Below, piece after piece: positions 4,055 through 62,096 of a DNA stretch of 64,000 nucleotides (positions are counted from its first letter, which is position 1; the number at the start of each line of letters is the position of its first letter). Source of the stretch: Polytrichum commune (lineage: Eukaryota; Streptophyta; Polytrichopsida; Polytrichales; Polytrichaceae); assembly GCA_950295325.1 (NCBI GenBank), contig OX485804.1, positions 50,902,001 through 50,966,000 of the forward strand, given 5' to 3'. The notes beneath the pieces are model-generated. The model was given only the letters and a program-made list of their open reading frames with translations. It made no database searches and was not told the DNA's origin. The position numbers and the translations under genes are program-made.

Positions 4055-5472
4055 GTTGTGGCTGTCTTCGAATCCACACAACAATTCGGCACCTTGTTCA
4101 ATGTCTGCACCGGCCTCTTCACATTATTGCTGGCCATGCTTTCTGATTCCAAACATGTCCATCTGCCTCAGTCATGAAGGTTGAAAGGCTTCGTCACAAA
4201 CACCGAATACCAAAATATAACCACCTGCCTCTACACCCATGAAATTCCTATTGTCTTTGATACTTCTTTGCAGTGTGGGTGTGACATGCCACCTGCCCTC
4301 CAGATTGAAGTCTGTTGTCCACACGTCAGGAATTGTTGTGTTTTTGGGTTGAAAGAGGCATAAACCCTCATACTAGGTAGAAATACCATAACCCGTGAAA
4401 ATAAGGTGATTCGCATTGAAGATCTAGTCTGACAATCATGAGATAATTTTCTAAGATAGACGAGAAGCATTCATGAAGAATGCAAGTTGTTTCATATTTT
4501 TCTGTCCTATACAAAAAATGCTATAATTTTTCAAAGTGGAAAGTTGTCCAAACCCCTACTCGTTCACTAGATTCTCCCTACACCGAACATGGTAATCTGC
4601 ATTTCCATACAGAACATCGCCTAAACCGGTTACCCCATGAGTACATTAACACTTGACTCCCATTGGCTACACTAAGTGCACACGCATTGAAGTTGTTGCC
4701 GAGCCATGATCGGTTTTAGAAATGGTACTTCACCATTATAACAGCGGTCTAGTGCACGGCTAGAGGGTGGTTAACGGGTTTTGGTATTTCTACCTTACAA
4801 CACGGTTTGCCGTGTTAAACATTTGGATAACGGGCTTGCATTCATACCGGTACCTTGTACAGGCGTTTATTTTTCCTTTGTTTTTGGGTTGCCCTCAAAA
4901 CACATTTTATGAACCTCATGCTTGGTTCGCGGCCTCTTCACTCAATTTCCAGCACAAAGAGGGGATAAACACATGAAATGGGCTACTCTTCGGGTGTCAT
5001 ACAAACAGCTCAAACAGGAAGCTCAAGAGCATTTTGGTGGTGGCTCAGAAATTTGTGTTGATCCACACAACCGTAACTGTGGATTTATGTGGAAACCCGC
5101 TGTTTCTAAGTCCCAATCTGAAGCACTGTGTGAGTCACACATGACACTCTGGTTAGCAGGAAGTATGGGTCGGGCATATGAGTCATTGAGGAAGTTAGAA
5201 GTTCACCATACGCATGCTATGACACTTAACCTTGAAGTCTTTCAATATCAACTGAAAATCCACACTTGAGGTCCTCGTCATATAATGACTCGGTCATGTA
5301 ATCTAAAGGGCTGGTTCACATGGGTCCCAAGTCCCAACGTGGAGGCAAAGTCCCTACTTGTGAGCCTCGAGTCATCACTAGAATATGGATAATTATCATT
5401 AAATCTTGATTATTTTATGCAAAAATATTCGTGGGACTTGAGTTGAGAGTTGGGACTCATTCGTGGTGGCAT
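4055..5472. other. Intergenic with one unrecognised open frame
   Basis: A 115-aa frame on the + strand (4922-5269) is the longest here and reads as reasonably balanced protein, but I recognise no domain and see no splice context. It could be a relic of a transposon gene or chance. Nothing else is supported. Confidence 0.4.
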
Positions 5473-6170
5473 TAAGGTAGAGGATGCTAAGTTTCCAACA
5501 GTTCAAGCTAATAATGAACATACATATGGCTATGTGGTTGATATATATATATATATTCATATTAGCCTTTGGGCTAAACATAGGTATCAAGAAAAAAAAA
5601 TTAGTCTCAATTGAATATTTGATGAATATTCAAAGTCAAAACTACTAGCCTCCTTAAACCAATCCATAGGCCCCGTGTATGGCAACCTCGCATATGATGA
5701 GGACCCCCACCTTCATTGCCTAGAACCAACACAACATGGTTGGGTACTAGACCCAACCTATATCAAAGCCCAAGTAGTAATGGTACGCAAAGCCACAAGG
5801 CTACCTCCATGATCCCACCCAGTTCACTTGCAAAACCATCGCCTTGCATCCCGGGAAATGACCCTTTTGTGCTTTGTGGGCCTACCTCCTTGGCGTTGTG
5901 AATAGAATGGCTAGAATAGGCATTGACAAGCCACCCTAATCCCACCTTGAACCAACCCGAGATAGAGTGAAACCCGTTACCTGCCATACATGAAGGTAGT
6001 GGAGGCTGCTATGAGGTGGCACCACTAATGACACCTAAAACCGATAGTCCGTGGGCCCAAACACTCCTACACCGCTAGATACAGTTCAAGGTTGTAGAGT
6101 GTTGACAATTGGGAGGCGTTCATAGGTGTTGGTTTTGGATGGGGTGTTGGTTTTAGCACCCTCTACCTTA
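5473..6170 (-). mobile_element. Family C TIR element, copy 2
   Basis: The left terminus is TAAGGTAGAGGATGC and the right terminus is GCACCCTCTACCTTA. The interior matches copy 1 in the opposite direction. Its sequence GAAGGTAGTGGAGGCTGC (about 5991-6008) is the uninterrupted version of the site where a family B element has inserted in copy 3 (see 38511-38718). Confidence 0.7.
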
Positions 6171-6239: not shown

Positions 6240-6760
6240 ATTAGGGCCCATTTGGAGTTGAGCCCACTTGGACTTGAAGTAGGCCTTAACTTTAGCCCTA
6301 CTTTACAAAGTGGACCGTAGAGTGGGCCTTGCAATATAAAGTCCATAGGCCCACTTGTAGGGCCCAAATTGGAAATTCTACTTTAAAGTGGGCCTTCCAA
6401 ATGGGCCTAGGGACTTTATATTATAAGGCCCAATCCACGGCCCACTTGGGCTTAAATGAATTACGCCCTTGCTTGAACTAAAGTCATAAAGTCATAAAGT
6501 CATAAATGACTATATGACGGAAGTTGGGTGAAGTGGGCCGAAGGTGCGAAGTGGGTCTCCATAAACCCTCGACCCAATTTTTTGGCATCGGCCCATTTCT
6601 TTCCCTCCAAAGTGTCGCCATGTCACCCGCCATGTAAGCTTTAGGAGAAGTGGGCCGATTCTCAATTTAAAGCCCTTGGACCCATATTAGGGCCCATTTG
6701 GGCAATCTAAGCACTCTCATTGGATGATGCCTAGGGTTTGGAAATGGGCCCTACTATAAA
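6240..6760. promoter_or_regulatory. Dense TGGGCC/GGCCCA cluster upstream of SAE1
   Basis: About fifteen copies of TGGGCC, GGGCCC or GGCCCA fall within roughly 520 bp, ending about 280 bp before the SAE1 start codon. In plants TGGGCY ('site II') motifs are bound by TCP factors and are common in promoters of housekeeping genes. A triple AAAGTCATA-type repeat lies at about 6479-6506. The density is far above the surrounding sequence. Whether it is a true enhancer or repeat-derived cannot be told from sequence alone. Confidence 0.5.
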
Positions 6761-6789
6761 GTGCCCCTTATATACCGGTCCAACATTGG

Positions 6790-6801
6790 TATATAATATA
6801 C
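6790..6801 (+). promoter_or_regulatory. Candidate TATA box for SAE1
   Basis: TATATAATATAC lies about 240 bp before the SAE1 ATG. A second TATATA lies at 6770-6775. With the usual 25-35-bp spacing, transcription would start near 6825. That gives a 5' leader of about 210 nt and leaves out the upstream ATG at 6811. Confidence 0.4.
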
Positions 6802-7037: not shown

Positions 7038-10000
7038 ATGGATCCACCACCGACAGAGCTCTTAACGGAGCAGGAAGCCGCGGTTTACGATCGCCAAATT
7101 CGAGTGTGGGGTGTCGACGCTCAAAGAAAGTAAGTGTACGTTTGTTCATGTTTTAATGAATGATGTGGTAGAATGGAAGAGGAGGTTCGGAATATTATTT
7201 TGATTGTTGGGTTTGTTATGGTTGTTGAGGTTCCAGGCTGAGCAGAGCCCGCGTTCTGGTGGTCAATGTCACCGGCGTCATTGCAGAGGTAAAATCTTAA
7301 GGAAATTTTGAATTCTTTTGAGAAATGATGCTTTGGACTGTTTTTTGAGACACAAAACTGTTCGGAAAATGTAAGGTTTTAGGTGCTTCGGAGGTGAGTG
7401 TCAATTGAAGTGTTGCGGAGGCAATTTTCCATCCGGCTCTTGGAACTGGAGTTGTGGGTAGCTCATATTTAAAGTGGTTTGTAATAATGTACCCATAACG
7501 AAGTATGACCGAATTGTTCTAGTTGATATATTGGAGGACTCAAGCCCTCGGTATGGTTCTCGGGGGCGGTTTTTTGTTCTCGCAGAACTGGAAACCAATA
7601 TTTTGGGGCTGATTTGAGGGTTCAGGGTAAAACGAGAGAAAGATTGGTAGACGTTGTTTGGGACCCAGTACTAAACTGTAGGGTATTGGGAACTTTGGAG
7701 ACGAGTGTTGAAATGTTGTTGATGCAAGTTTTCATTAAAAAGTAGTGTGTAATGTACTCATAAGGAAGGAGAACTCAATTCTTTCTGGTGTCATATCGGA
7801 GGACTAAAACCCTTGTTATTGTCCTTGAGGGCGGTTCTTTTCTTGTAGAACTGGAAACCAGTTTTGGATAGTTGAGGGAAAAATTTGAGTACTGTTGTTT
7901 GGTACTGTTTTGAGACTCAGTACTAAACTGTAGGGTTTTGGGGACTTCGTAGACGAGTGTTAAAATGTTGGTTGATGCAAATAAATAAATATTTTTATTT
8001 AAATGAAAAAGTAGTCTATAATGTGTCCATTTGGAGGACTAAAACCCTTGTTATGGTTCTTGTGGGCCGTTTTCCGCTCTTGCAGAACTGGAAACCAATT
8101 TCTGAGGGTTGAGGGTAAAATTTGAGGGATTTTGATTGAGACTCTTTTTAAGACCCTTATGAAACAGCAGAGTGTTTTGGGTGCTTTGGAGATGAGTGTT
8201 TAAACATTGCTGATGTTCCTGTACTAGAGTTGTGGGTAGCTCATTTGAGCATATCCCGACGAATTTCTCTGTGACGTACCCATAAGGAAGGATGACTTAA
8301 TATTCTGGTGTATTGGAAGGCGAAAAGCCTTCATTGTGGTCCTTCAGGGCGGGTTTCTGTTCTTGCAGAACTGGAAACCAAGGGCCTGATTTGCTTTTTG
8401 CCAATGCAGACATGCAAGAACATAGTTCTGGCCGGCATTGGCAGCCTCACACTGATTGATGACAGTCCAATGACGTTGGAAGCGTCAGCTGCCAATTTTC
8501 TAATCCACTTTGACGAGTTTGAGGGCCAAGGAATCACGATCGCGGAAGCATGTGCTGCATCTTTGCGTGATTACAATCCCATGGTCCGGGTTTCAGCTGA
8601 GCCAGGTTGGCAATTCTTGGTCTACCAATGTTATCTTCCCATCGTAACCTTGCCATATCTTTAAACCAGTCTGTGAGTTTTAAACCTTCTGTAAACTGTT
8701 TGCACAGAATTTTCAAACCTGAGGTTGGAGATGGGTTCTTGATTGTGGGTTATAAAAAAATTAATTGGAGTTTGTCTGGTGTATGAATAATTCTGGGTTG
8801 CAGGGAGAATCTATGACAAGCCCGAGGAATTTTTCAAGGACTTTGATGCTGTTATCCTTGGACGTTCTTCCATCAGCCTGAGGGTAGGTTTTTTAAAAAT
8901 AAATAAATAATTATGTGTGTTTACATTTCTTGAAATTTCTCAATTGTCCAGTCATTTTAATGTCGTTTGCTTGATTTATTTGTAGTCCTCTCTTTGTTAC
9001 ATATCTTACATGTGGGTCTGGTGATTGTGGAACAGAGGCATGTGAATGAGGTGTGCAGAAAACAGCCTCACAGAATAGCATTTTATGCTGTGGACTGTCG
9101 AGGCACAATGGGGAGCCTTTTTGTGGACTTGATCACCCAGTCATTCACTTCAAAGGTATATTGAAAACCTCTGTAGTGCCATTACATTACGATTTGGAAC
9201 TAGAAGAATGCAATTGGCATCACCTTAATCTGGATGCAAGAGTCATTTAATCTTCTAACCTACGAGTAGTAGTGCACATTGGGTTCAAGTGAAAACACGA
9301 TTAGCTTCATATGCTAATGATCAATATGTTATGACCAATGTTGAACTGGTAAATAGGTGAATGCATGGGTACCAGTAGTGGTATCAAAGAACCTACCCGT
9401 GGATATCAAAATGGTTAGATCCAGTCAAATATTGATATTTGGTGGGTATGTAAAGGTGAAAGAATCTTTTTATACCAGAGTTGTTATTTGGGTCAATACC
9501 ATTCTAAACCATGTTGATACTGGAGCAACTTTACCAAGGTATGAAGATTCTTGCCTGGTATATAGACCTGAATGGAATCAAAAACACAAATACTGTCAAA
9601 TACCCATACTCTAAGGTATCAAAAAATATGAAATCCTCATTTTAGATACGGTATTGAGACAAAGATGATACCAGTTCAACACTGGTTATTACCATCTACA
9701 AGGGAACTGCAGAGTCGTGCAAGTATGAAGAGCAAATTTCGTTTTCTTATTAACAGGACAGTTTGGGTCTTGGTGCTTTTGTGACTCCTATGCTTCTCTT
9801 TGAGTCCCTCATCCTTTCTTCCCACTTCAACCCTCTTATATGTTTGCGACCAATATGTGATTTGTGACAATTGGACTGTTCTATGGACCTGGCATTTACT
9901 CATATTACATATGTGGGATGCATCCATAGAAAGCAGGAGACAACAAAGCTGTGCAGCAAGAATTAGTCTACCCTTCTCTCAAGGTGAATTGAACTGGACT

Positions 10001-11710: not shown

Positions 11711-12404
11711 AAGAGAGTATTTTGTATGCAGCTTTCTCAGACCTGTAGTGGTCTTGTGTATCAATTAGAACAGTCAGGTGAAACTGATTGCTAACGAACA
11801 TTACATTCTACGTAGTTGCTGACAACATGGTATGATGCCATGAACATGTTAAACAATCCTGACTCCGCTTTTATTGGCTCTGCCCAAGAGCTGTTTTTTT
11901 CTCACCCATAAGTTTGTCCCCGAATGAATGTATGCAGAAGAATGCGGAAAGTAGATAAGTAATGTGGATGGAATTAAGTTAACTACAGACAACTACACTG
12001 ATTATCCCAATTGGTGAGGGAGGGCTAATAGTGCCTTTGGGAAATTGGTAAAGGTGATACTAAATTTCTTTACGCTATGAAATTAGTGCCACCAAAAGAT
12101 CTAGGAAGCAATGTTAATCCTGGCATTATTCATTGACAAGCATGTGTTTGCATGTGATGTTTTTAATCACTCTACAAGCACCTTAGAGCACACACTATTT
12201 TTCTTGAAATGTATGGTAAATGAGCATTTATTCATGAAATTAATATCATTCAGTTCAATTTTTCAACTCACTAATTTGAAAACTTAGCAAAATAGAGTGT
12301 GTTTTGGGAATTAGTATGACTCTCAGTAAATGAGATAATCAGTGCACTTGTAATCCATTTGTAGTTGTTTATAATAGTATTCTATCAACTGTGCTTTGAT
12401 ACAA
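11711..12404. other. SAE1 3' flank, nothing further recognised
   Basis: Probably contains the SAE1 3' UTR. No confident poly(A) signal or gene is called. Confidence 0.4.
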
Positions 12405-12841
12405 CAATGAATGAGGAGAACCGTCTGCTAGATGCAAATGAGCTGGGTTGAGTTTGAGAAATAGCCAGTTGAAATTCAAGACTTTAGGAAAATTACTGAT
12501 TGTTTTAGAGGAATCTGTAGAATATTCCTCGAATTAATAATGAAAACGGACTTGGAATCTGGACTTGGAAACGCTAGGATCTTGACTGATTATGCTGAAA
12601 GACCTCCCCAAACACTGTGATACACAATGAATGGGGAGAACCGACTGCTCATTACAGATGAACCGGTTGAGTTTGAGAAATAATCAGTTGATGTTCAAAA
12701 CTACATGAAAATTAACAGTCATTTAGACTAATCTATGGAAAACAACTCAAATTAATAAAGAAAAACCGAAAGACAACAACATGGAATCGGTTGGACTTGG
12801 AATTACTACAATTGTGACTGCTTATTCCCAAAAATCTCCCA
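12405..12841 (+). mobile_element. Family B element, two tandem copies
   Basis: Two head-to-tail diverged copies (about 12405-12616 and 12628-12841) each begin CAATGAATGRGGAGAACCG. They share GGTTGAGTTTGAGAAAT and end near AAATCTCCC/GACCTCCCC. They match the intact element at 38511-38718 and the array at 24714-25695. There is no coding capacity. Confidence 0.75.
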
Positions 12842-15386
12842 AAAACCTACATGTACCTTAAGCCAATGCCCTACAATGGCTAGGTTGCATATTTTGCCTA
12901 GGGGGTTGTAAAGCCATTTATGAAGCACATAACGGACACTAAGGGTAAAAGCAAGCCATTAAGGCACATGCCTTTGGCCCCAAGCTATTGGGTGTACCAG
13001 TCCCTTACACCTATCCTAGTGGACCTCCACTGGTAGGAAGCACATGTCTTTAGGACATTGTTTTTAATATTTGAAGGTCACAATTAGCCACACATGACAT
13101 GTGCGGTCAATTGAGGTTAATATGTCAATATATTAGTTGATCCTTGACTTGTTTTAATTCTTGATTTGGTCACTATTATTTTATATATATTTGTAAACAC
13201 TAACGAATTCTCCGTTTCAACATGGTGATTTTTTGGTTCATGATTTTTTTGGGCCTAAATTTTGTTAGTAATCTCTAGGGTATTTTTTGGAAGTTTCTAA
13301 AATGGATAATTATATTTATCGCATTAAAAAGCTTGTCCAAGATGTTAGTGGCCTCCACCTAGGGGGCCTCAGGGACCTATAAGGCTAGGCCATGGGATAC
13401 AACCCTTGACGTCATGGCCTCCACTTGAATGTCCTAGCCACCAATTTCTTGCACCATTTCCCGGGGGTGGACTTTTCATTACACATACGAACTAACGTGA
13501 GTGTAAGAAGGGGTTTAATAAGATATCAGCGTACATAGTATACATAAGGGAGAGGATTTGAATGAGCCAACTAGCAGGTGACAATGGACAAATTGCAAGA
13601 TCCAAAATTTCCAGAAGCAAGCTTTGAACACAGAAAAAAAATCTTCCTTACCAGCGATTTCTAGCACATCAACCAACCAACACCACGGATTGACAACTTC
13701 TTGGCTGCATACTATTGTAGGGCTCCAACCCTAAATTCAAATTTTTGGAGGATGTCCCTAGGAACCCCACATGAGTTGATTGCATGCAAATCAAACAAGA
13801 GATCTAGAGGAAGAATTACCCACTAGAAGAGAGAAGAGAGTGTTGGAAGCCAAGGGAGGAGAGAAGAGACGGGGTCAAGTTGTGAGGCCTGAGCCAAACT
13901 CAGGTAGGAGGAGAGAAAAGGTTAATTAACCTCCGCATGGAGTTGAGGTTGCTTTGTCAAAACTCCTTTGTAAAAGTTAGCTTGACTTTTAGGTATGTCA
14001 CTAAAATTAGATGACCCTTTAGTGCAGCCTATAATTAGTTAATTTATGCCTAAAATTACCTTGACCAATATCTTAAGTAAGCAATGCGGCTGCACCCTAA
14101 CACTTCTACTTCTCCCTCATCCCTTGACCCTCCCCCAATGGACTTTGCCACTAAATTGGTACTTGTGATAGAAAATATATTAGAACTCTTCCACGCCACC
14201 TCCCTCTCTATCACACCCATAAAAACCCATCATTCCCTACCCAATAATATACTTCTCCCCTTCATTAAATAAAAAATCTGCACTTACGCAAGGGTTTTAG
14301 TTTCTTTGCATTACTAGAACATGAAGTTTGCCTTGTTTCTGTATTATTTTGGGATAAATTTCTTTTGCATTCTAAAATGAAGTCTTCAAAGAAGTAAAAC
14401 GTTTAACATTCACCTCCTTTGACAAAGATTTCAAAGATTTCCATTATGCAAAATAGGTGATTGAAAAATATTTGGTTCAATTCTTATTGTTTATTCCGAA
14501 TTTGGATGGTGGGCTGAAATTTGAATCTATGATATTCTAACCCACACAAATGGAAATATCCATTTGACACAATTTAATTTAAATAATTTGGTGATGAGAG
14601 AAAATCTCACAAACTCATGAGTAGTCAAGGTTCTGTTGACTTCAAGATATGTGAACTTATATATCATATATTTTACACTTGAAATTGAATGACTTGATCA
14701 TTTAGACCATTCTTAGATTAAAAAAATGAAAATTTTCAAATAGGAATCACACTTCATATGGTTTTTTGAAAATGTTATTAATATTAAATTAATTTTGATA
14801 TTATGTATGTATGTATGTGTATTCCAAAAATCCGTAATGGTCTTCTTGGGCATTCAAGGGTTAAACAATGTCATTGGTCTTATTACTGGGGCTATAACTC
14901 TATTTCATAATTTCATGATAGTGATTTAACTAAACAAAATTTTGTGCCTATTGTTGAGCTTTGTGGTAAACAAAACCTAATTCATTAGCATTATCTAGTA
15001 GCCCTCTTATGTACCTCTTTTCCATGTCTATTACAAAATAAGGTAAATATTTTCACCCATGTACGTGTATGAGTAGTATGTTTTTCACTTGATTGCCTTT
15101 ACTTGATTGGCCCAACCAATTTCACGTATGCAATGACATCATATGTTGCTCTCGGAGAAGGTCACTCTCATAAGATGTGTTGCCCTATTGTGGGGACCTC
15201 CAACTCCACATGTAAATTGGGGTCTTGGATCAAATTCGAAATTGTCTCATCCAAATAACAATTTTGTATCACGCAAACGCACTTCAAGTTTCAGATTTAG
15301 ATCTAAAGATGCAAAACTTATAGGAGATCAAAGTGAATATTTTGTTTCTCTTCATAAGATAGACACTCCCCAACCAATTTGTTTTA
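12842..15386. other. Intergenic, nothing recognised
   Basis: About 2.5 kb of AT-rich sequence. The short frames at 14084 and 15143 have no recognisable product. A TATG microsatellite lies near 14804-14819. Confidence 0.4.
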
Positions 15387-16410: not shown

Positions 16411-16622
16411 TTTGGAGATCGAGCGAGCGACATTACAGTTAACTTCATCCCTCTCTCTTTGGAGGTCAAGAGAGCGAAATTACGGTTATCGTCTTCCCTC
16501 TTCAAGATAGAGTGAGCGAGTGATATTTCGGTTACCGCCATCTCTCTCTCTTTGGAGATCGAGCGAGCGAGTTTTACGGTTGGCGTCATCTTACTCTCTC
16601 TCTTTGGAAATCGAGCGAGCGA
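16411..16622 (+). repeat. Five tandem 42-52-bp units abutting the VOC start codon
   Basis: Units centred on TTTGGAGATCGAGCGAGCGA recur at 16411, 16458, 16500, 16551 and 16603. Each is joined by a pyrimidine stretch (CTCTCTCTC) and a TTACGGTTGGCGTCATC-like segment. The last unit ends about 10 nt before the ATG of the VOC gene. The array therefore lies in its 5' UTR or core promoter. The alternating CT-rich and GAGCGAGCGAG blocks could act as GAGA-type sites or as an unusual leader. Confidence 0.85.
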
Positions 16623-16631
16623 GGTTACGCC

Positions 16632-17039
16632 ATGAGCACCATCTTTGCGCCCGAGAGGCAGCTCGTATACGAGTGGTACACCCCGTCACTGGAGAAATCG
16701 CTAGCTTTCCTGCAGGCGTTCGGGTTTATGGTGTTACGACGGGAGGAGGCTTTCGCCGAGTTGTCATACGGACGGAATCGTCTCCTGGTGGAGCAGATGC
16801 AGGACTATAATTCGGAGGAAGCTAGTGCTGCTGTTGGATACCGAGGGTACCATGGAAACCTGCGCATATTGGTGGACAATGTGGACGCCGTGTATCAATC
16901 AGCGATGTTAATTAACGGATGCAGAGTGTTGAAAGAGCTGGGAGATCGGTACTATGGCCTACGAGATTTCACAGTCGGTGGCCCTTACGGACTCGCTCTG
17001 CGATTTGCACAACCTCTGCCAGGCTTCACCGAGGACTAG
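16632..17039 (+). CDS. VOC/glyoxalase-bleomycin resistance fold protein
   Basis: A single-exon 135-aa protein with the length and layout of a one-domain vicinal-oxygen-chelate protein. It shows two beta-alpha-beta-beta-beta halves: YEWYTPSLEKSLAFLQAFGF (about residues 13-32) opens the first half. NLRILVDNVDAVYQSAMLI opens the second, followed by the typical closing strand pair around YYGLRDFTVGGPYGLALRF. Such proteins include glyoxalases, dioxygenases and drug-binding resistance proteins. The substrate cannot be inferred, and I do not see a complete metal-ligand set with confidence. Codon use is GC-richer than the surrounding DNA. Many VOC proteins are bacterial, so an old transfer is possible but unproven. 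The start follows a tandem-repeat array, and degenerate copies of the 3' end follow downstream. Confidence 0.75.
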   Translation: MSTIFAPERQLVYEWYTPSLEKSLAFLQAFGFMVLRREEAFAELSYGRNRLLVEQMQDYNSEEASAAVGYRGYHGNLRILVDNVDAVYQSAMLINGCRVLKELGDRYYGLRDFTVGGPYGLALRFAQPLPGFTED

Positions 17040-24713: not shown

Positions 24714-25695
24714 TGTCTTGGCAATGAAAGGGGACAACCAACTGCTAGTTGCAGATCAACTGGTTGAGTTTGAGAAATGACCAGTTGAAGTTCAACACTT
24801 CAAGGAAAACTACCAATCGCTATTAGAGAGGAACTTAAAGAATATACCTGACATTCATAAAGAAAATCCAAAAGATGTCAACACATGACCGGTTGGACTT
24901 GGAAACACTAGGATCTCGACTAATTATGCCCAAAAATCTCCCTAGACACTGTTGCATCTTGGCTCTTATGGTCCAATGATCGGGGAGAACCGGCAGTTAG
25001 TTACATATGAACCGGGTGAGTTTGAGAAATAACTGGTTGAAGTTCAAGACTTGAGGAGAATGACCGATCACTTTAGAGGAATCTACTGAGAATATACCTC
25101 AAATTAATATAGGAAAATTGAAGGATGTCAACATGTAACTGGTTGGACTTGCAAACACTAGGATCTCAACCAATTATGCCCCAAAATCTCCCCAGACACT
25201 ACTGTGTCTTGGCTCTTATGGTCCAATGATCAAGGAGAACCGGCAGTTTGTTACAGATGAACTGATTGAGTTTGAGAAATAATCGGTTGAAGTTCAAGAC
25301 TTGAGGAGAATTACCGATCACTTTAGAGGAATCTACTGAGAATATACCTCAAATTAATATAGGAAAACTGAAGGATGTCAACATGTAACTGGTTGGACTT
25401 GCAAACACTAGGATCTCAACCGATTACGCCCAAAAATCTCCCCAGACACTACTGTGTCTTGGCTCTTATGGTGCAATGATCAGGGAGAACCGTCAGTTAG
25501 TTACAGATGAACCGATTGAGTTTGAGAAATAATCGGTTGAAGTTCAAAACTTGAGGAGAATTATCGATCACTTTAGAAGAATCTACTGAGAATATACCTC
25601 AAATTAATATAGGAAAACTGAAGGATGTCAACATGTGACTGGTTGGACTTGCAAACACTAGGATCTCAACCGATTATGCCCAAAAATCTCCCCCA
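24714..25695 (+). repeat. Family B element amplified as a 250-bp tandem array
   Basis: Four head-to-tail units start near 24714, 24957, 25207 and 25457. The phrase TCTTGGCTCTTATGG at 24957, 25207 and 25457 gives an exact 250-bp period. Each unit contains the family B body (GGAGAACCGGCAGTTAGTTA, GAGTTTGAGAAATAA, AACATGTAACTGGTTGGACT). Units 2-4 are very similar and unit 1 is diverged. The array ends about 18 bp before a coding-looking exon. Confidence 0.85.
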
Positions 25696-25712
25696 TCACT
25701 GTTATGGTCCAG

Positions 25713-25889
25713 AATCCAGGTGTAGAAACTATCCTAATAAGCAGTGCCAGTGGTGATTCTAAGCAGGAGTCTCTCGTGAACAGATTAGCAAAGGGTCTTG
25801 TGACGTCATGCAAAGTGAATGGCAACGAGATTGATGAATGGAAACAGCCTGCCTGGAAGGGTTTTCACCATGCATGGAGAACAGAATGA
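25713..25889 (+). CDS. Orphan coding-looking terminal exon, unknown product
   Basis: The open frame follows a CAG acceptor-like site (TGGTCCAG before 25713; an alternative AG lies at 25718-25719) and ends in TGA at 25887-25889. It encodes about 58 aa. The composition is globular: LISSASGDSKQESLVNRLAK is an amphipathic stretch, and the end is QPAWKGFHHAWRTE. I do not recognise the family. It may be the last exon of a gene whose intron was filled by the family B array just upstream, or a captured or decayed fragment. No upstream exon could be found. Confidence 0.35.
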   Translation, partial: NPGVETILISSASGDSKQESLVNRLAKGLVTSCKVNGNEIDEWKQPAWKGFHHAWRTE

Positions 25890-26527
25890 TAGTGGTATAC
25901 TTCTTCGTTTTTTTGTTTCATCCCTCCCTTTGGCTACACGGCACATTGCTGAGTTGCTTTCTTTTCATACACATTATGCATGTTAGTAGTGACAACAATG
26001 CGGATACTGATAATCCACACTTCCATGGTGAGTGGCTAGAGCTTCTTCAGTTGAACTCCTTATAACTTTTGCATCTCAATTTTAACAATGAAACTTGAAA
26101 TGGAAATCTTCCTGACACTATGTGATATGATATCAATGGCCAAAATTGCGTGTGGAGTTGAAAGTGCCCATAGTAGGGTCATGTATCTTAATATATTTTT
26201 TTTTTTAAATCCTGGGGATACGTTTCATTGAGGAGGGAAAATCTAAGTCATTACATTTGTTTTGATCAGCCACTCATATGTTGTAGCTAACTTCGCACAT
26301 TCATTACGAAAGAATTCTATAAATTTGATCAATTTGTTTGACAAGATCCAATGGTTGTACAATTCAAGTGGGGGTACCTAGTTAAAACATGGCGTGTGCT
26401 AATTTTGGATGAGTTCTCATAATATTCTCATGTTTTAGAATTTGAATAGATGAAGATGAGAATTTTAAATGTGGATGTCATATGCTTATTTTGGAAGGGT
26501 TCAAAATTTGTCGACCGTGTGATGGGT
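25890..26527. other. Intergenic, nothing recognised
   Basis: AT-rich. A short poly-T run lies at about 26200. Confidence 0.4.
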
Positions 26528-44985: not shown

Positions 44986-45317
44986 TGATTTCATTATATA
45001 CCAACAAAGTTAAACTTGCCCAACATATGAATGAAAAACGATGGCTAACAACCTTGAATACATACTTATTGGCCCTTGAACCAATATTTGAAGGTTGGAT
45101 TGTAGCTTCATGCAATCGGCATACATCATACTCCTTACAGATGATGATAGAAACTCCAACCCCTTTCAAGCAAGGGGCCGGCGTGAATAAAGTGTCCGTT
45201 CGTAATGCCAATGACCCGATGCCCTCATACTCCTTACACATGATAGTGTGGCCATTTAATTAGCATGATATGCAAACACCATTACTCGCATTGAGTTGCA
45301 CTGCTCAAGAAAAGCAT

Positions 45318-46094
45318 GAGGAAATTGTGATGATACAAGTTTGCATGAGATTCATATGAACAAGTTCAATCAGTCGATGAGACTCGGCTTCTAGCGTTCA
45401 AAAATCTATCAGAAATGCAATTCCTTACCAACATAACTAACATCAATTCTACAAAATGTGTACATATCAGTCACCGAGGTGTTGGTAAAGCCACAAAATT
45501 CACATGGTACTAATTCCGCACTTTTCACCAAACTTGATGTACTTTGTTACATGCGGTAAACTTTGTTGCATGGCATGAGGAAATTGTGATGACACAAGTT
45601 TGCATGAGATTCATAAGAATGAATTCAATTGTTTGATGAGACTCAGCTTCTAGTGTTCAAAAATATATCAGAAATGCAATTCCTTACCAACATAACTAAC
45701 ATCGATTCTACAAAACGTGTACATATCAGTCACCGAGGTGTTGGTAAAACCACAAAATTCACATGGTACTAATTCCACACTTTTCACCAAACTTGATGTA
45801 CTTTGTTACATGCGGTAAACTTTGTTGCATGGCATGAGGAAATTGTGATGATACAAGTTTGCATGAGAGTCATAAGAACAAGTTGATTTGTTCGATGAGA
45901 CTCAACTTCTAGCGTTCAAAAATCTATCAGAAACGCAATTCTTTGCCAACATAACTAACATCGATTCTACAAAACGTGTACATATCAGTCACCGAGGTGT
46001 TGGTAAAGCCACAAAATTCACATGGTACTAACCCCGCACTTTTCACCAAACTTGATGTACTTTGTTACATGCGGTAAACTTTGTTGCATGGCAT
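45318..46094 (+). repeat. 259-bp tandem repeat, three copies
   Basis: GAGGAAATTGTGATGA starts units at 45318, 45577 and 45836, an exact 259-bp period. The third copy ends at 46094. The copies are very similar by eye (CATATCAGTCACCGAGGTGT and TTACATGCGGTAAACTTTG are kept in all three). No shared open frame of significance. The low divergence suggests recent duplication. Confidence 0.92.
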
Positions 46095-46387
46095 GCAAGA
46101 AGAGTTTAGCTTTCGGTCACAGGTCACTCCAGGTTTCCAGCACGAGAAGGACAAAAAGCAGGAAAGTTGGGTCGATATTGGAACGTTGCAGCTGGCCCAT
46201 GATATAAATATTACAAAACAGTCCGTATCTCCCCCAAGGGACTGACTGTGTCTTGGCTTCATCATCAGTATATCGATCTGCATGAGCACTACAAGTTTGG
46301 CGCTTTCATGGTTCCTAGCTACCATTGTGCCATCTTACTGACTGTTTCTTACGTGTGTCTTTCATTTTACTGCAGTGAGCTGGTCGC

Positions 46388-52615: not shown

Positions 52616-55600
52616 ATGGCGAAGAAGGAAGGCGGGTTCAATACATGGCTGCAGCGAGTGAGGCGAACCGGGGAGTTCAGCGATGTCACGGTGCGAGTGG
52701 AGGGCGAGGAATTCCACTTGCACATGCTTCCACTCCTCAACGCAAGTGCGTATTTTCGCAACATTTCTTCCACCTCTAGTACCGCAGGCAGCTCCTCCTA
52801 TTCTCGTGACCATAGGGCAATCGACCTCACGGATTTGCCAGGTACCGCATTCCATCCCATCCAATCCCAGCGGCAGTAATAGTAGTAGTGGTGGTGGGAA
52901 AGAATGGGTGTGCATTTCTGTGTGGTTTGACGTTCCTGTGCATCAAAACCAGCCGGCCTGCCTAACCTTACCTTCGAGGTGCATTTGTAAGTGTCTGACA
53001 ATTGTTGCTTCGAGGGAAGCCTGACCTTGGGGGTTGTGAGTGTTGTGGGATAGTGGCGGAATTCGAGGTGCATTTTGTGGGTGTTGGACAATTTGTTGCT
53101 TCGAAATAATAAGGCTAAGCTTGGGATTTGTGTGTTGTGGGGGATAGTGGCGGAATTTGAGGTGCATTTGTGGGTGTTTGACAATTTGTTGCTTCGAAGG
53201 GAAGCCTCACCTTGGGTTTTGGGAGTTTTAGGGGTCGTAGGATAATGGCAGAATTTGGGGTGCATTTGTGGATGTTTGACGATTTGTGGCATCGAAGGAA
53301 GCGTAACCTTGGGTGTTTTAGGCATTGCGGGGGATAGTGCCAGATTTGGTTGAGGTGCATCTGTGGATGTTTGACGATTTGGTGCATGGAAGGAAGCCCA
53401 ACCATGGGTATTCTGGCTTCTTTGGGATAGTGGTGGAATTCGTGGTGCATTTGTGAGGTGTCTGGCGGTTCGTTGCGCCGAAGGAAGCCCAACCTTGGGT
53501 TTATTAAGGTGTTATGAAATAGTAGCGGAATTCGGGGTGCATTTGTGGACGTTTGACGATTTGTTTCATCGAAGGAGGCCCGATCTTGGGGGTTTTTGTG
53601 AGTCATGGGATATTAGCGGAATACGAGGTACATTTGTGGATGTTTGACGATTTGTTACGTCGAAGGAAGCCTAACCTCGGGTTTTGGGCATTGTGAGATA
53701 GTGACGAAATTTGAGGTGCATTTGTGACTACTTGATGCTTGACCTCGATGTTTGACTACTTGTTACATTTCGGAAGCCTAACCTTTCGGTTTTATGCATT
53801 GCGGGATATTAGCGGAATGCGAGGTGCATGCGTGGATGTTTAACAACTTGTTATATCTCGGAAGCCTAACCTCGGGGGTTTTGGGTTTAATGGGCTTGGC
53901 AGGCGGAGCGGAAGGGTTCACCGTCGTAACCGACTATTGCTACCTCATCAAACCCAACTACACAGTGCAAAACATCGCACAGGTACGCGCATCAGCAGAC
54001 TACCTCGGGATGCAAGATGTGCTGGAAAGCACCAAGAAGTTCTTATACACCAACGTATTCGCACACTGGCGGACAAGCTTCAGCTTCTTACAAAACTACA
54101 CACAGTTAGGCTCCCCCGTGGACGAGTACATCGAAACTCGATGTCTCAAAGTACTTGTCGCAGCACTGGCAAGGGCGTTCGGCGAGTGCAAATACCTGTC
54201 AGCTCCTATGACGCTTACATCAACCCCCGGAAACTGGCAAACCTCGCCGTGCCAAGCTTTGTCAGAGATTCTGGTGAAGACAGCTTCCCTTCCGGATGTG
54301 TACGCATGTGAGGCCCTGGATGCTTTGGTTGAGGCCGAGGTCAATCTTAACCTCAAGTGCAGGCAAGGCAGGAACACCAGGAGCTGGCTTGACAGTGTCA
54401 TTGATGATGAGTGTCCCAGTGAGAGGGCTAAATGCTGGGTCGCTCTTTGTTTGTCGAGGATGCTCCTGCGAGCTGCTCCGGACACTCGGCCGTGGATGGA
54501 GCTCTCTTCGCAATACTGGTGCAGTCTTCTTGAGCATGTGGATCATCTGTTACCTTCAGTTGATGACGAAGACATGCAGGTGGGGATTCCTTCTTCTCTT
54601 AACCTTCTTACCGAACCTCTCTCTTCCAAACACAAATTTCGTCAGGTATCGAACTTTGTGAATGTGGCATTCCGTTCGATCTCAGAAGAGAATTGGTATC
54701 GAGTTGCCTTCTCCTACTGACTTTGGTTTACCTTCCCTAACCTTACCAGAGCTCTCTCCCACATCCTGCCAAACATATCCGTTACTGACTTCAGTATGCC
54801 TTCCGCTTTCTCTCACATCCTCCCAAACATAAATTTCGAACTGAATTTACTGAAATTTATGAATGTGGCATTTTGTTCGATCTTGGAAGAAAGTAAGTTA
54901 CTTAGCCATCATCTCTTACTAACCTCTGCATACCTTCTTCCCTAATTTTGCCGGTGATCCCTCTCACAAACTAGTAAACAAATTGTCAGCTACCGTGATT
55001 AGTGCATCGCTTTGCGAAAAGTTTGTGAATGTGGCGATTATGTTCGATCTTGGATGATATAAGTACTGAGCCGCTATCTCCTACTGTCCTCGGTTTACCT
55101 TCTTCCTCACTCTCCCATCCTTCGAAACATGTATTTCGTCAGTTACCGAAATTTGTGAATACATTTGCAAACGTTGTGAATGCGGCATTTCGTTCGATCG
55201 TGTAAGAAAAAAACAGTACTGACCTTGGTATACCTTCTTCCCTTCACCTTACCGGAGCTCTCTCTCACATCCTCCCAGACATAAATTTGTGAATACATTT
55301 GCAAAATTTTGTATATGCGGCATTTCGTTCAATCTTGGAAGAAATAAGTGCCGCCATCTTCTACTGACCTCGGTACGCCTCCTTCACTAACCTTACCGGA
55401 GCTCTTTTTTTTCGCATCCTCTTTAATACTAACTCCGTCTGTCAGTGAGCTTTATGATAAGTTCATAAAATTTGTGAATGCGGCATTTCATTTGATCTTG
55501 CAAGGATGAAAAGTATTGATTTTTTGTGACTTCTTCTGACTTTTTGGTGCAGGTGAAGCTGGTGGAAGTGAAGACGGTGCTTGAGAGAAGGATCGGCGTG

Positions 55601-57351
55601 AGCCTCGATGAGATCGACGAGTATTTGCACGCTTACAAGTTCGGTCCGGAGACGCTGTTGGCGATGGTGGGCTACTTTCTGGAAGAAGGCGATCCCGACC
55701 AACGAGCTTTCGAGGAGATTGCTGGCGAGATTGACGGTTTTTTGTGGACCTACTCAGAGACCGGCACCATCAACCCTGACACTTTCCTCGCCCTCTTCGA
55801 GGTTAGTCGGTCTCTCTGCCTGCCTGCAACCCCTACACTGTCTTGGGCGTTCTCTTCGAAGTCTTTCTTTGTGTTCATCGTCTTGATCACTTATCTGTTA
55901 TAGCTTCCATTCACATTGTCCACCCGAATTTCCTTACCGTTGGAGCGGTTCTGAGAAACTTGTTACAGCCCCATTGCAGCCAAAAATCTTGCACAAACAT
56001 CAACGAGCGAATTGTCTTGTGCGAGCTCTTCAAAGTCATTTCTTCTTGTTCATCGTCTAAATCATTCATCTGTATTGCATCCTCTCTGCACAATGTCCAC
56101 TTGAATTTTATTAGCCGTTGAGCTGATGTGAGATGCCTGTAGCAGCCAAACCTTGCAGAAACATTAAGAAACGGACTTGTCTTGTTCGATCTCTTGGAAG
56201 TCTTTTGTGTTTATCATCTCAACTATGATCTGTTATTGACCTCTCTGCACTTTGGTCATTGGGATTCCGCTATCCGTTGAGCGGATGTAAGTAACTTGTT
56301 GAAACCCTTTAGCAGCCTAACCTTGCAGAAAGATCAACAAGCAAACTGTTTTGTGCGATCTCTTGGAAGTCTTTGTGTTTATCATCGTCTCAATCACTGA
56401 TCTGTTGTTGCATTTACTCAGCAAGTATCTTGCCTGCATCCACTCACATTGTCCACTTGAATCTCACTTCTGTGGAGATAATGTGAGAAGCTTGTTGAAA
56501 GCATGTAGCTGCCAAACCTTGCAGAAAGATACTAGCAAGCACACTGTTTTGTGCGATAACTGTGTGTTCATCGTCTCACTTAATGATCTGTAATTGCATT
56601 TCCTCACATTGTTCACTCAAATTATTTTTCTTATCCATGGAGCGGACGTGAGAGAGAACTTGTTGGGAAGCCTACACTACCCAAACCTTGCAGAAACAAA
56701 CCAACAAGCGAAAAAAGAACACATATGAGGTGTTCGCAAAGAATTAGGGTTATCTGGTTGCAATAAGGAAGAAGCTCATGTGAAAATTCTGGTGCGTGTT
56801 TTCAGGCATTTCCGTGCAACACTCGCCACTCGCACGACACAATCTTTGGGGCGGTCGAGAAATTGTTGTTGACACGATTGGACATCACATCCGAGGAAAG
56901 GCAGCGTCTTTGGGGGCTTGTTGATCCTGCAAAGCTTAGCCCGGCCGTGAATGAGAGGGCCTTGAACAATCCTGGGTTCCTCAGCCAACCCCACATACTG
57001 GAGATTGTGCTACAAAAACACAGCGAGGAGCTCTCGAAGGTGCCCGACACTGATGGCCAGAACCTGAGGCACATCATGCAGAAAGTCATCAATGCAAGCT
57101 TGAAATTGCTGGAAGAGAATTCCCGGCGGTCCAAGGAGATCATCCAGCTGCAACAACAGTACTCTGAGCTTCTTGGGGGCAAGATCTGCCACTCACAAGA
57201 CAGCTGCGACGACAGCCCTGACCCGGCCTACTGGCACTCCAACCTGCAAATCGCTCACCGAACCTACCTGCAGGAAAGTGAGATTGATGGCTCCGAAATC
57301 TCCGAAACACCGTCAATGGCCACTGTCAGTTCAATAGGTGCGCATTTTTAG
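52616..57351 (+). CDS. Divergent BTB-NPH3 domain protein
   Basis: Plant NPH3/RPT2-family proteins are plasma-membrane or cytosolic adaptors, often for CUL3 ligases and phototropin or auxin signalling. Exons: 52616-52841, 53903-54579, 55553-55801, 56806-57351. All are GT-AG, phases join (1, 0, 0), and the total is 1,698 nt (565 aa). The BTB domain (about 20-115) shows FSDVTVRVEGEEFHLHMLPL and, across the exon 1/2 join, DLTDLPGGAEGF...TDYCY and ASADYLGM, the family hallmark. The NPH3 region is divergent. It includes KTVLERRIGVSLDEIDEYL (exon 3) and EERQRLWGLVDPAKLSPAV (exon 4, about 416-434), followed by a predicted coiled coil (KLLEENSRRSKEIIQLQQQ). Exon 2 could run to a second GT at 54645, but that extension is the first unit of the intron 2 repeat. 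All three introns are tandem-repeat arrays. The exact subfamily is unknown. Confidence 0.88.
52976..53902 (+). repeat. NPH3 intron 1: ten-copy tandem repeat of about 93 bp
   Basis: GGTGCATTT (or one-base variants) recurs at 52978, 53067, 53161, 53259, 53354, 53444, 53536, 53627, 53715 and 53823, with spacings of 88-108 bp. Each unit also carries TGTTTGACGATTTGTTGC-like and GAAGCCTAACCTTGGG-like segments. The last unit runs into the splice acceptor. The copies are diverged. Confidence 0.93.
54588..55510 (+). repeat. NPH3 intron 2: six-copy tandem repeat of 135-201 bp
   Basis: GTGAATGCGGCATTTCGTTC (variants) recurs at about 54665, 54866, 55032, 55181, 55316 and 55479. TACCTTCTTCCCTAACC-like and GAGCTCTCTCTCACATCC-like segments accompany it. 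The first unit begins within 10 nt of the chosen exon 2 donor. It is unrelated to the repeats of introns 1 and 3. Confidence 0.9.
55822..56720 (+). repeat. NPH3 intron 3: five-copy tandem repeat of 164-196 bp
   Basis: CAAACCTTGCAGAAA (variants) recurs at about 55989, 56153, 56323, 56519 and 56688. TTGTCTTGTGCGATCTCTTG and TTCATCGTCTCAATCA-like segments are in each unit. A partial unit sits at the donor end. Each unit carries a TTGCAG that resembles a 3' splice site. Confidence 0.9.
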
Positions 57352-60300
57352 CCATCTTCGTCTTCTTTTCTACAGCAAATTGATGAAGAACAATCATCAG
57401 CCCCCAGCAACCAACCAACCAACCAACAGTTCATCAGAATAGAAGATTTGCACCCATAAATTAGGCTCAAGAATATCGTAGACATGATGGGAAAATCGAC
57501 AGTTTTTTTTCTTCTTTTATCATAACCCTCATAGACAAAATGCCAAGTAGGAGGGCATCATCTTCAGTTGTAGCAGCACAAAAAGGTCACCTTAGATCAA
57601 TCAATGAGTAGGTGCTAAACCTCGCCATCATGTCATTCACACACAGATGACAACACTGCAACTTTCAGTACATTCAGACAGACTATTTATATATCAGTGT
57701 ACATCATTACTTTCATCAGGGTCCTGTCAAGCAAACTTGTTTCAAGCTCTAAATCATACCTGACCCAGTTGCAACAGGCTTTTGGGCCACATGCAAACAA
57801 ATCCATTTTGAGCTGCAAAAGAATCTGAGTTCACATTCTTGAAATGTCTGGTACAACCGTCAGATTGCAAAAGAGGAAAGATGTGCTTAGAAACTCTGGG
57901 GTTTCCTACCCTAAAAACAACTCTTTCATTACTCTACAATCACCTAAAAATCAGTTGTCCACTCTGATTGTTCACAATTGCACTAGACATTTCAAGAAAT
58001 GTGAACTCCAATTCTTTTACAGCTCAGTACCGTAGCTCTCCTGCAGCTTGAGCACCTTTCTGCCTAATAATTAATTAAATAATTAAGTGCGAAAGTAAGT
58101 TTGCAGCTTAGAAAATAATATTCTAAAATCGGGCAGATTCAAGAAGTAAACAAATTAAGTTAGGCATTCATCCAAGTCATTTCTATGCCTCATGGATGGT
58201 TTTCCTAGTTTCATCCATGGCGGCCACGATTAACCTAAACACTTCCCTTAACCAACATTCCTTACCCTAAAGTTTGTCTTTTACTTGTATGTCACGGTTT
58301 TGCTTTGTGTGAGAGTTATATGGAGTGATCTTTGTGAGAGACTATGTCACTTGCATTGTTGTGATTTTAGGCACTCTTTGAATGTTATTTCTTTTTTTTT
58401 GGTCCACTCAACAAAATCAGCTTCTCAGAAATTTAGGCACCTTCAAATTTATTATTTTCTGCCCAAGCTGCTAGAGAGCTACGGTATGTTCTTCTTTAGT
58501 CTTGTAAAGAATTCCGGACATGGATGTTGTCCACTCTGATTGTTAGGTGTTGTTAAATGGTATACTTGATCTTGATCCTCAGCCAGCACACTGCATTCAG
58601 TCATTTTCTGTTCAATTTCTTGGTGTAATGAACTTGTTGGAATGCATGTGCAGAAGCCAAGCCGGAGGTGCGTGACATCTATTCGATAGAAGAGTAGTTT
58701 TCTTTGATTCTGCAGGTTTGATCTCAACTAAGATCAGTTTGAAGGAATTGCCACATTGTATGTGATATAACTTAGGCACCTGCAAGTTCCATATTCTCAG
58801 CAGCCTCAGCTAAATCAGGCAGCTCTCCCATTTTGAAACCTGGAGTAGGATTGCGCCATTCATCATCAGATCGTGCAGATTGTTGTATGGAATTAGCAGC
58901 GTCTAGCGTGCATGTGATTGACTGCTACCAATGTATAGGGACACAGAGACACAGACAACTGAATTTGGGTGATTGTAAAGTACTGAAAGAGGCGGTTTTA
59001 GGGTGGGAAACACACAGTTTCTAAGCACATCTTTCCTCTTCTGTGATCTGTTGGTTGTAGCCTTCCCTGTGATGTATACTTAAGGTGTGTGGGTCTTATG
59101 TGGTCACTCTGCTTGGAGGAGCAAAAGGCATGCTTGATTATGAGCCCTTCATATTCCTACATTGAAGTCCATCCCTGCTAGTTTTATTTATTTAAACTTT
59201 ATACATTTATCTTTTGTTTTGTAAAGGTTCGAGGAGTATATACATGTTGGCTACAAAATGCACAGTGAAGAATACCATTTGGAGTTTTTGTTTTGTTTCA
59301 TTTAAATTTGAAGTTGGCAACAAATTTGTCCTAAAAATTGGAATTAGGTCACAGAGGGGGGAGCTATCATGATTGTGGTGTTCGTGTTGGTGATGGCATA
59401 GGTTGTGTAGGTGGCATTTAATGCACCAAACCATGTTGCCTTGTTGGTTTTTTGACATTTTTTTTTCCAAGTCGTAATTTTAATTATAAATAAATACAAT
59501 TTAGCTTCCGAGTCATGAAGTCCACAAGAAAAAAACCATTCATCCTTGCCACATTGATTGTTGGGTGGTTTTTTTTTGAAAAGGGAGGCAATATCGAAGA
59601 CTGTCCTTTTTTCTTCATGAAAAGTAAACATGTTTGTTGCATGTCATCATAACATTACTTAGCGATGTGGGCCCTTTGAATATAACAGTTGGATGTTGGG
59701 AGCTTAGTTAAAATTTGAGTCTCCCTACACAATTTTTCAAGCATCCGATTGTTACATTTTGAGGGCCCAATGATTGAGCACTAAGTGTTAAGTAACATTA
59801 TGACATGGATTGTTTGGGGAGTTGCATAAATACTTAACATTAATATACCAACAACCAATGAAAGCAAGGGGTAGTGAGGGTTGGAAGAAGTGGGTAGGGA
59901 CAAGGTTGGAAGAATTAGATATGGACCGATATTAGGCATGTGCACATTCCTTGAATGACCATGTTCATTGAAACTAAATTGAGGATGCTTTGGACAATCA
60001 TAAAGGCTGTCAACGTAGGACTTCTTGTGTTAGTGAGTAGTTGCTTCATTTAATTTTCCTTGATTACTTTATCACGTTTTGCATGCCTCTACTTCTTTCT
60101 TGGATCACATAGTCATAATCAATTAGAACTTACTTGAACATGATATATTAGAGGCCAAGGGAAGACCCAAAGAATGCATAAGGAAGGTTAATTTGCAAAT
60201 AGGTTTAGAAAAAAACAAAAGGAAAAACCTATGCCATGACCCACCCCAAGTCTCCAGCTAACCCCCCCCCAAAAAAAAATCTCGCTTGCGCAAACTTGGG

Positions 60301-60736: not shown

Positions 60737-62096
60737 ATGGACGACTCCAAGAATATTGAAGTTGGTGAATTTTTAGATGAGTATGCATTAACCACTACCG
60801 GATCACATTGTTGGAAATACATGATGAAGATGCTAGGAGAGGCGATCGATGCGGACATCTCTTTGAAAGTTGGAGGAGGCGAGGTGGTGAAGGCACACCG
60901 CTCAATGCTCACACTCTTTTCACCCGTCTTCAACACAATGTTCACATGTGGGATGCAAGAGCACCAAACGGGTGTTGTGGAGCTCATAGACACAGATGTT
61001 GAGGTGTTGAAATTGTTTCTAGTCCTATTGTATTCAGGTATGAAATGCGAGAATTGAGTCATGAAGTTGATGTCAATAATGTTTGGATGGTTGCCACAAT
61101 GAACGTGATAGTCGACTATGGCATCAACCGTCCACAATGATGGGTCCAAAGCAAAGTAGTTGAAAGTGGACTAGACATGTGGACTAGGCAAACTAATGTG
61201 ATGCTATTTGATTTGTTTTTCTTCATAGGTTGGTCAAAAGTGTGTTAGGGAGGTCAATTATGAGGTTGACCAAATGAGCTGATGTGGATTGATTTCATTA
61301 CTTCATTATGGTTGGTTGATATATATGTTGGATATAAAACATCCATTGGAGATGATGTATATTGATCATCAAACTACTTGAATATTTTACAATATGTAAT
61401 TCAAGAAATAAAATATCTTTAAAGGAAATTACAAGATAATATACCAAAATCTAATAGTTTCACCCTATAGTTGTAGTGATAGTATAAGGGACTAGTAGCT
61501 AGGTGCTTTCAAAAATATTAGTAATCAAATTTGTAGTGGATGGTAGTGTGCTTCAGTAAGTAATGTTATGTATATGGCAAACCTTTGAAGAATAAGCACC
61601 AAAACAATATGTGCACAAAAGTTAACACAAGGTGTTAAAGCTATTTTTGGTCATGTTGTATGCAGGTGCGGAGTGTGAGAGGGTGTTGAAGAACGATGTC
61701 GTGGACAAACACCTCAACAAGCTTATCGACTTGTGTTATAAGTATGAAGTAACCCATGTGTTTCCCACTTTGTCCAAATTGGTGAAGCGTTTTCTGACAA
61801 TTGAAAATTGTTGTGGTTACTTTGTTTGTGCTACCGAATTTGGTCTAGATGATAATTGTGCTAACTACATTTCTAGTTACATCACAAAAAAGTGGGGTCA
61901 GGTGATAAACACTGATGGTTTCATGTGTCTAGCCCACACTCATCCCGTGCTAGTAGTCCAACTTGTGAGATTGGAAAAGGGAGAAGAAGACGAAGAAGAA
62001 GAAGAGGAAGAAGAAGAAAGAGAAGAATCGGTGAGGCCATCATTAGGTAACAGGATGTACAAGACCTACGTTGGTAGTCACAAACGTTCGAGATAA
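60737..62096 (+). CDS. BTB/POZ domain protein with acidic tail
   Basis: A candidate substrate adaptor for CUL3 ubiquitin ligases. Exons 60737-61037 and 61666-62096 (GT-AG, phase 1) give 243 aa. Residues about 23-101 are a BTB fold: DADISLKVGGGEVVKAHRSM, LFSPVFNTMFTCGMQEHQTG and EVLKLFLVLLYSG. Exon 2 supplies the end of the BTB and a BACK-like helical part (DLCYKYEVTHVFPTLSKLVK), then a run of about 14 acidic residues and a basic C-terminus. The start is the ATG before DDSKN. The frame is open upstream to 60662, which would add 25 less typical residues. The intron is unusual: the 40 nt before the acceptor encode KVLKLFLVMLYAG, a paralogue of the exon 1 end. The locus may therefore be a functional fusion or two adjacent half-pseudogenes. 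Confidence 0.7.

Follow-up and report, generated by a model that had tools for sequence, protein, structure and literature searches.

The BTB-NPH3 gene and its intron arrays

The window analysed here is a stretch of 64,000 bp of the Polytrichum commune genome (C2:50902001-50966000), located on the 70.3-Mb chromosome C2 of an assembly of 407.8 Mb in 64 contigs, seven of which are chromosome-sized (42.1-77.9 Mb). At positions 52616-57352, the window contains a BTB-NPH3 gene, and each of the three introns of this gene consists for the most part of a tandem array. The gene lies on the forward strand and has four exons. The coding part of exon 1, from the ATG (52616..52841), was delimited by its open frame and carries the BTB domain; exon 2 (53903..54579), exon 3 (55553..55801) and exon 4 (56806..57352, including the stop codon) were delimited by open frame and protein search. 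The exons have a guanine-cytosine (GC) content of 53-55%, and joined together they form an open frame of 565 amino acids. The product matches the Pfam domains BTB (41.7 bits, E 1.4e-10) and NPH3 (38.3 bits, E 1.5e-9), both above the Pfam cut-offs, which places the gene in the NPH3 family. Intron 1 (52842..53902, 1061 bp), intron 2 (54580..55552, 973 bp) and intron 3 (55802..56805, 1004 bp) all have GT-AG borders.

As determined by self-BLAST, the tandem arrays cover 87%, 94% and 87% of introns 1, 2 and 3, respectively, and the strongest self-matches have E values of 3e-138, 3e-52 and 6e-82. At E<1e-3, no tandem region appears in any of 300 dinucleotide shuffles. The three introns contain 435, 192 and 167 repeated 8-mer pairs, whereas 100 simple shuffles of each gave at most 35, 27 and 19. 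An initial annotation, made from the sequence alone, had described every intron as mostly a tandem array, and this description is upheld. Its unit counts (ten of about 93 bp, six of about 160 bp and five of about 170 bp) are corrected to 11, 7 and 5 plus a partial unit. Intron 1 contains 11 units of 69-108 bp (about 92 bp) with a mean pairwise identity of 0.727, intron 2 contains seven units of 68-179 bp (0.697), and intron 3 contains five units of 149-196 bp (about 170 bp) and a 35-bp partial unit (0.723). Tandem Repeats Finder (TRF), even at its lowest score, finds the array of intron 1 alone and misses those of introns 2 and 3.

The arrays end close to the splice sites. By the self-match rule, the main array of intron 1 (52973-53894) leaves 131 bp free at the 5' splice site and 8 bp at the 3' splice site, and a more diverged first unit begins at about 52910, about 68 bp in from the donor. 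For the array of intron 2 (54623-55536), these distances are 43 and 16 bp, and weaker matches from 54583 onwards put its start 3 bp from the donor. In intron 3, the array (55839-56712) leaves 37 bp free at the 5' splice site and 93 bp at the 3' splice site. The units of the three introns are mutually unrelated, with no similarity above shuffles in any of the six comparisons. The exons are untouched: no exon sequence of at least 14 bp is repeated in the introns of this gene or of the two further genes described below (two exons of an SAE1-like gene, and 250 bp on each side of the L029 intron). Both observations agree with the initial annotation.

In introns 1 and 3, identity between units falls off slightly with their separation (permutation p 0.02 for intron 1 and 0.05 for intron 3), and intron 2 has no clear trend of this kind (permutation p 0.19). 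Stepwise local duplication predicts that nearby units are more alike, so the trend in introns 1 and 3 counts in its favour. A single burst was considered and set aside, since stepwise growth fits this slight decay of identity at least as well. Hairpin-driven slippage is unsupported, as none of four stretches taken from the arrays folds better than shuffles. The idea that an equal age of the three arrays marks one event was also dropped, because many arrays of the genome are similarly decayed, near the detection limit.

Genomic copies, the closest paralog and other array-filled introns

Introns 1 and 2 are each located at one place only in the genome, as seen in a match search that skips very common words. 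For intron 3, the search found the intron itself and six other loci, and the protein search revealed a seventh, L042, with exon 4 alone. At these seven loci (L001-L006 and L042), pieces from intron 3, exon 4 or both are present with 81-98% identity (e.g., L005:2001-2294 and L001:2001-2402). Each locus has one terminus-like sequence with the inner motif TTATAGGCCTTTCCCGAAATGC within 5 mismatches; the outer motif TCGAGGAGGAGG is whole in five of the seven, shortened in L004 and absent in L002. Of 125 candidate places for the terminus in the genome, 40 were scored as carrying it, including four of the seven piece-bearing loci. Because the pieces in L005 and L006 span the joint between intron 3 and exon 4, the gene is the source of the pieces and not their recipient. 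The pieces are best explained by capture into mobile DNA of an unassigned class, with one terminus found per locus, which resembles the gene-fragment capture of Pack-MULE- or Helitron-like elements. L001 retains about 404 bp of intron 3, comprising several units, at 93% identity, whereas the units themselves differ by about 28%, indicating that the array is much older than this capture.

No unit of the three introns is common to arrays at many places, as the units of an ordinary satellite spread genome-wide would be. A relation to other introns or mobile elements, as in introner-like elements, was likewise not found for introns 1 and 2, which have a single place, or for intron 3, where the gene itself is the source. 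The units are specific to their own intron, which supports the proposal of the initial annotation that the introns were built by local duplication and not by transposon insertion.

The closest paralog of the gene, L041, is about 60% identical in exon 2 and has introns at the same three positions. Synonymous divergence between the two genes in exon 2 is saturated (NG86 dS 2.3; 36 of 57 fourfold sites differ) and lies far above the divergence between array units. The introns are therefore older than the gene duplication. The introns of L041 measure about 1.3, 1.2 and 1.0 kb and lack comparable arrays; their sole self-match is a weak pair in intron 1 (67%, E 5e-5). An intron of 1 kb is thus possible without such an array. 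The arrays are probably younger than that duplication, the alternative being their loss or full decay in L041. At oriented positions 6313-6535 and 6599-6800, L041 also has a diverged tandem copy (66%, lag 286) of the end of exon 4 and the 3' flank.

The same anatomy is observed in two other introns. In the window, an SAE1-like gene (start at 7038, last exon ending at about 11710) has a second intron of 1121 bp (7289..8409, forward strand), of which 86% is an array with a period of about 268 bp. The other is intron 1 of a different NPH3 gene, L029 (C3:39563900-39567600, minus strand), which measures 914 bp (oriented 823-1736) and is 89% array. SAE1 intron 2 and the L029 array are each located at one place in the genome, and this recurrence speaks for the initial annotation. 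This anatomy is thus common to five introns from three genes, with lengths of 914-1121 bp (mean 1014 bp, standard deviation 79, with SAE1 intron 2 entered as 1120 bp), a GC content of 40-48% and no G-quadruplex (G4) motif on the sense strand. The tight length range may reflect how the cases were selected, as three were given beforehand and two were found through their arrays.

Tandem arrays in the genome background

Ten random 8-kb pieces of the genome contain 9,497 of 80,000 bases in arrays (11.9%), compared with 11.1% of the window and none of the 80,000 bp of shuffled random DNA. This sample is small: locus L044 supplies about half of its array bases, and three pieces have no array at all. 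As controls, 124 introns bounded by contiguous exon matches were scanned in kinesin, NPH3, TCP1 and glucan-synthase genes; these families are conserved and many of their introns are short. Only three of the 124 have any tandem duplication, all with fewer than two copies, and none has at least 2.5 copies. Two of these are among the 72 introns of kinesin genes (45) and NPH3 paralogs (27), both in NPH3 genes with about 1.7-1.8 copies, and the third, with 1.7 copies, is among the 52 introns of TCP1 and glucan-synthase genes. Nine exon pairs in which an exon was missing or overlapped were excluded from the 72, all at kinesin loci that are array-free when scanned whole; the 19 comparable gaps excluded from the 52 contain no array. 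Intron 1 of L029, whose upstream exon lies beyond the Pfam match, and the introns of L041 are also outside the 124. Array bases amount to 0 of 44,070 at the kinesin loci, 0 of 21,256 at TCP1, 681 of 43,908 at glucan synthase and 3,558 of 67,415 at the NPH3 paralog loci with flanks. Further arrays lie near NPH3 exons at L034, L035 and L036 and were not placed in introns, so the rate in the NPH3 family may exceed 2/27. Array-filled introns are rare among the sampled genes and not unique to the NPH3 gene, and random DNA is richer in arrays than the control-gene introns are.

In the 349,622 bases of the window and the fetched loci, 31 tandem regions were found, two-copy regions included. Of these, 25 share no sequence with another array: 20 have no outside match anywhere in these bases, and five have few, including intron 3 through its captured pieces. 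The remaining six share units, in two families. Private units are therefore the usual result of local duplication.

These data do not support three broader claims of the initial annotation, whose observation is confirmed and whose interpretation is supported in part. With duplications in 3 of 124 control introns, the genes sampled do not support tandem duplication as the general mode of intron growth in this genome. A growth ceiling near 1 kb is not supported in view of the L041 introns, which lack such arrays, of control introns of 100-2238 bp and of arrays elsewhere of up to 2.4 kb. A mechanism that targets each intron separately is not called for at the array level of random DNA and with 25 of 31 arrays private in any case.

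Several other arrays were observed. The young array at 45314-46095, located at one place in the genome, is made of three 259-bp units (93% matches) and 5 further bp and bears GCATG at either edge. This exact length with the edge motif suggests a microhomology footprint, as expected if tandem duplication took place between short matching sequences, and may show how such arrays start. The array at 24722-25700 has units of about 250 bp (89%) and is not private: together with 12394-12844 and L048:180-633, it belongs to a dispersed tandem family with one unit of about 220-250 bp (67-73% identical). The other family is within L044, where three arrays of one 85-bp unit (205-2596, 3636-5855 and 7686-8000, the last inverted) lie around long open frames; two of these frames were scanned without a Pfam match. 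At 25713-25892, an exon-like open stretch, with 58 amino acids to the stop, begins 12 bp past the array 24722-25700 and has no Pfam match and no convincing PDB match (E 0.088). Pfam scans around the other arrays of the window found little. Exon-like frames are present at 16524-17036 (glyoxalase-like, above the Pfam cut-off) and at 61626-62093 (weakly BACK-like, below the cut-off).

Origin of the arrays and comparison with known systems

With a probability of roughly 0.7, the intron arrays are the product of ordinary local tandem duplication, and the gene is a tolerant bystander in an array-rich genome rather than a target. The starting point would have been ordinary, older and probably shorter introns, in each of which a stretch was duplicated in tandem by chance. 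The first duplication probably occurred between short matching sequences, through replication slippage or microhomology-mediated repair, and later copies would have been added stepwise, either by slippage or through unequal exchange among the units. Because splicing removes them, extra copies would be near neutral and would be retained as long as the splice signals stay intact. Constraint on these signals alone would explain why the arrays reach close to the splice sites without altering the exons. The expansion is old, with units now about 27-30% different, and the same process appears to act elsewhere in this genome.

Several observations weigh against this reading. Three of three introns in one gene are array-filled, compared with none of the 124 controls at 2.5 copies or more (Fisher p 3e-6, for a gene that was chosen for its striking look). 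In the random DNA, arrays fill at least 80% of a 1-kb stretch at a frequency of 0.058, mostly due to L044, which gives about 2e-4 per gene for three such introns if introns are independent. A fourth array-filled intron, in the SAE1-like gene, lies only 44 kb from the NPH3 gene. The narrow length range of the five introns is not predicted by the simple model, and neither are full introns by the background process alone, given that arrays are commoner in random DNA than in control introns. The arrays are also too old for the original duplication joints to be read. In a genome with tens of thousands of genes, a handful of such genes would be expected by chance at about 2e-4 per gene. Coincidence is thus a plausible explanation for three array introns in one gene, with gene-level instability as the alternative.

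Instability at the level of the gene or region, by replication stress, recombination or chromatin, could let several introns expand, each from its own sequence, as in avian sequence stuttering. This is an unlikely explanation. It would account for all three NPH3 introns and SAE1 intron 2 being filled within the same 64 kb and for delimitable introns of at least 850 bp being array-filled in four of four cases in the window versus one of 16 elsewhere (p 0.001, with the NPH3 gene preselected). The lack of such arrays in the paralog has a parallel in the ohnolog PHF2 as against PHF8 in the bird study (PMC12954441). However, the array density of the window matches that of random DNA, the five introns are not GC-rich and lack sense-strand G4 motifs, no exon-derived copies of at least 14 bp are present, the array stretches fold no better than shuffles, and C2 is a large, 70-Mb chromosome. 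A more specific proposal is a plant form of intron stuttering, in which several introns of a gene or region grow separately but more or less concurrently, each out of its own DNA, up to about 1 kb. With five array introns of 914-1121 bp, four of them inside one window, the process could be independent of sequence, and it may depend on transcription, splicing or intron length instead. This proposal is somewhat less likely still.

Inserted copies of a dispersed satellite, or of transposons with internal repeats, are very unlikely as the origin of the arrays. The intron 3 pieces at other loci do adjoin the sequence scored at 40 places, and the L044 and 12394/24722/L048 families show that some arrays of the genome are shared. 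Nevertheless, introns 1 and 2, SAE1 intron 2 and the L029 array are each found at one place (very common words being skipped), and the L005 and L006 copies identify the gene as the source. A satellite origin is rejected, with introns 1 and 2 single-place and the three introns mutually unrelated.

A slightly more doubtful route is RNA-templated: an excised intron circle or lariat would have been copied repeatedly by reverse transcriptase and reinserted, with the unit corresponding to the old intron. Read from the sequence, the units of intron 2 almost exactly span splice site to splice site, and most have near their end a CTGAC-like motif, which we take to be a branch-point motif. This route needs units that start at the donor, whereas the arrays start 131 bp inside intron 1, 37 bp inside intron 3, 130 bp inside SAE1 intron 2 and 29 bp inside L029 intron 1, and arrays are frequent in random DNA too. 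Copying of a lariat or circle is thus disfavoured for four of the five introns, whose arrays begin 29-131 bp past the donor. The least credible alternative, that the introns are new and arose by tandem duplication of AGGT-bearing exon segments, has in its favour TGCAGGTG at both splice junctions of intron 2 (as read from the sequence), the established status of such intron gain (PMC3443670) and a self-match of intron 1 extending 5 bp into exon 2, too short to judge, and it is rejected because L041, at a dS of about 2.3, has the same introns and no exon sequence of at least 14 bp is repeated within the introns.

The gene shows that introns can come to consist almost wholly of copies of their own sequence without disruption of the protein frame. 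Diverged arrays, of which TRF missed two of the three here, also make up over a tenth of the random sample of this genome. Intronic minisatellites, or variable-number tandem repeats, are tandem units that arise in introns by local duplication, as proposed for the NPH3 arrays. They differ in that the units here are about 90-270 bp long, occupy almost the entire intron and have decayed strongly. In intron gain by tandem genomic duplication, a duplicated exon sequence becomes a new intron (PMC3443670; PMC4974935). Here too, tandem duplication acts at a gene with AGGT-like splice joints, but pre-existing introns were enlarged from within. Among the papers listed in searches of the open-licence literature with the terms used, none describes plant introns built from private arrays.

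Among published phenomena, the sequence stuttering of avian dot chromosomes (PMC12954441, 2026) comes closest. That study describes introns filled by imperfect local repeats, several per gene, with a paralog elsewhere free of repeats and nearby intergenic DNA also affected. Its further marks are occasional exon-edge copies, GC-rich genes, location on dot chromosomes and strong variation between individuals. The NPH3 gene is similar in that all three introns are mostly imperfect tandem repeats (87-94% coverage), the repeats are of local origin, with intron 3 dispersed only secondarily, the introns of L041 lack such arrays, and intergenic DNA nearby is affected as well. It differs in that exon-edge copies of at least 14 bp are absent (in birds they are only occasional), the introns have a GC content of 40-48% and lie on a large chromosome instead of a dot microchromosome, and the units, about 70-73% identical in the one assembly examined, are old rather than active. 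The NPH3 arrays are therefore similar to avian stuttering in anatomy only and are not filed as the same phenomenon. If the clustering per gene is true, stuttering, which is described in birds and mentioned for gerbils, would extend to a plant that has neither GC-rich introns nor microchromosomes, and its cause would become testable.

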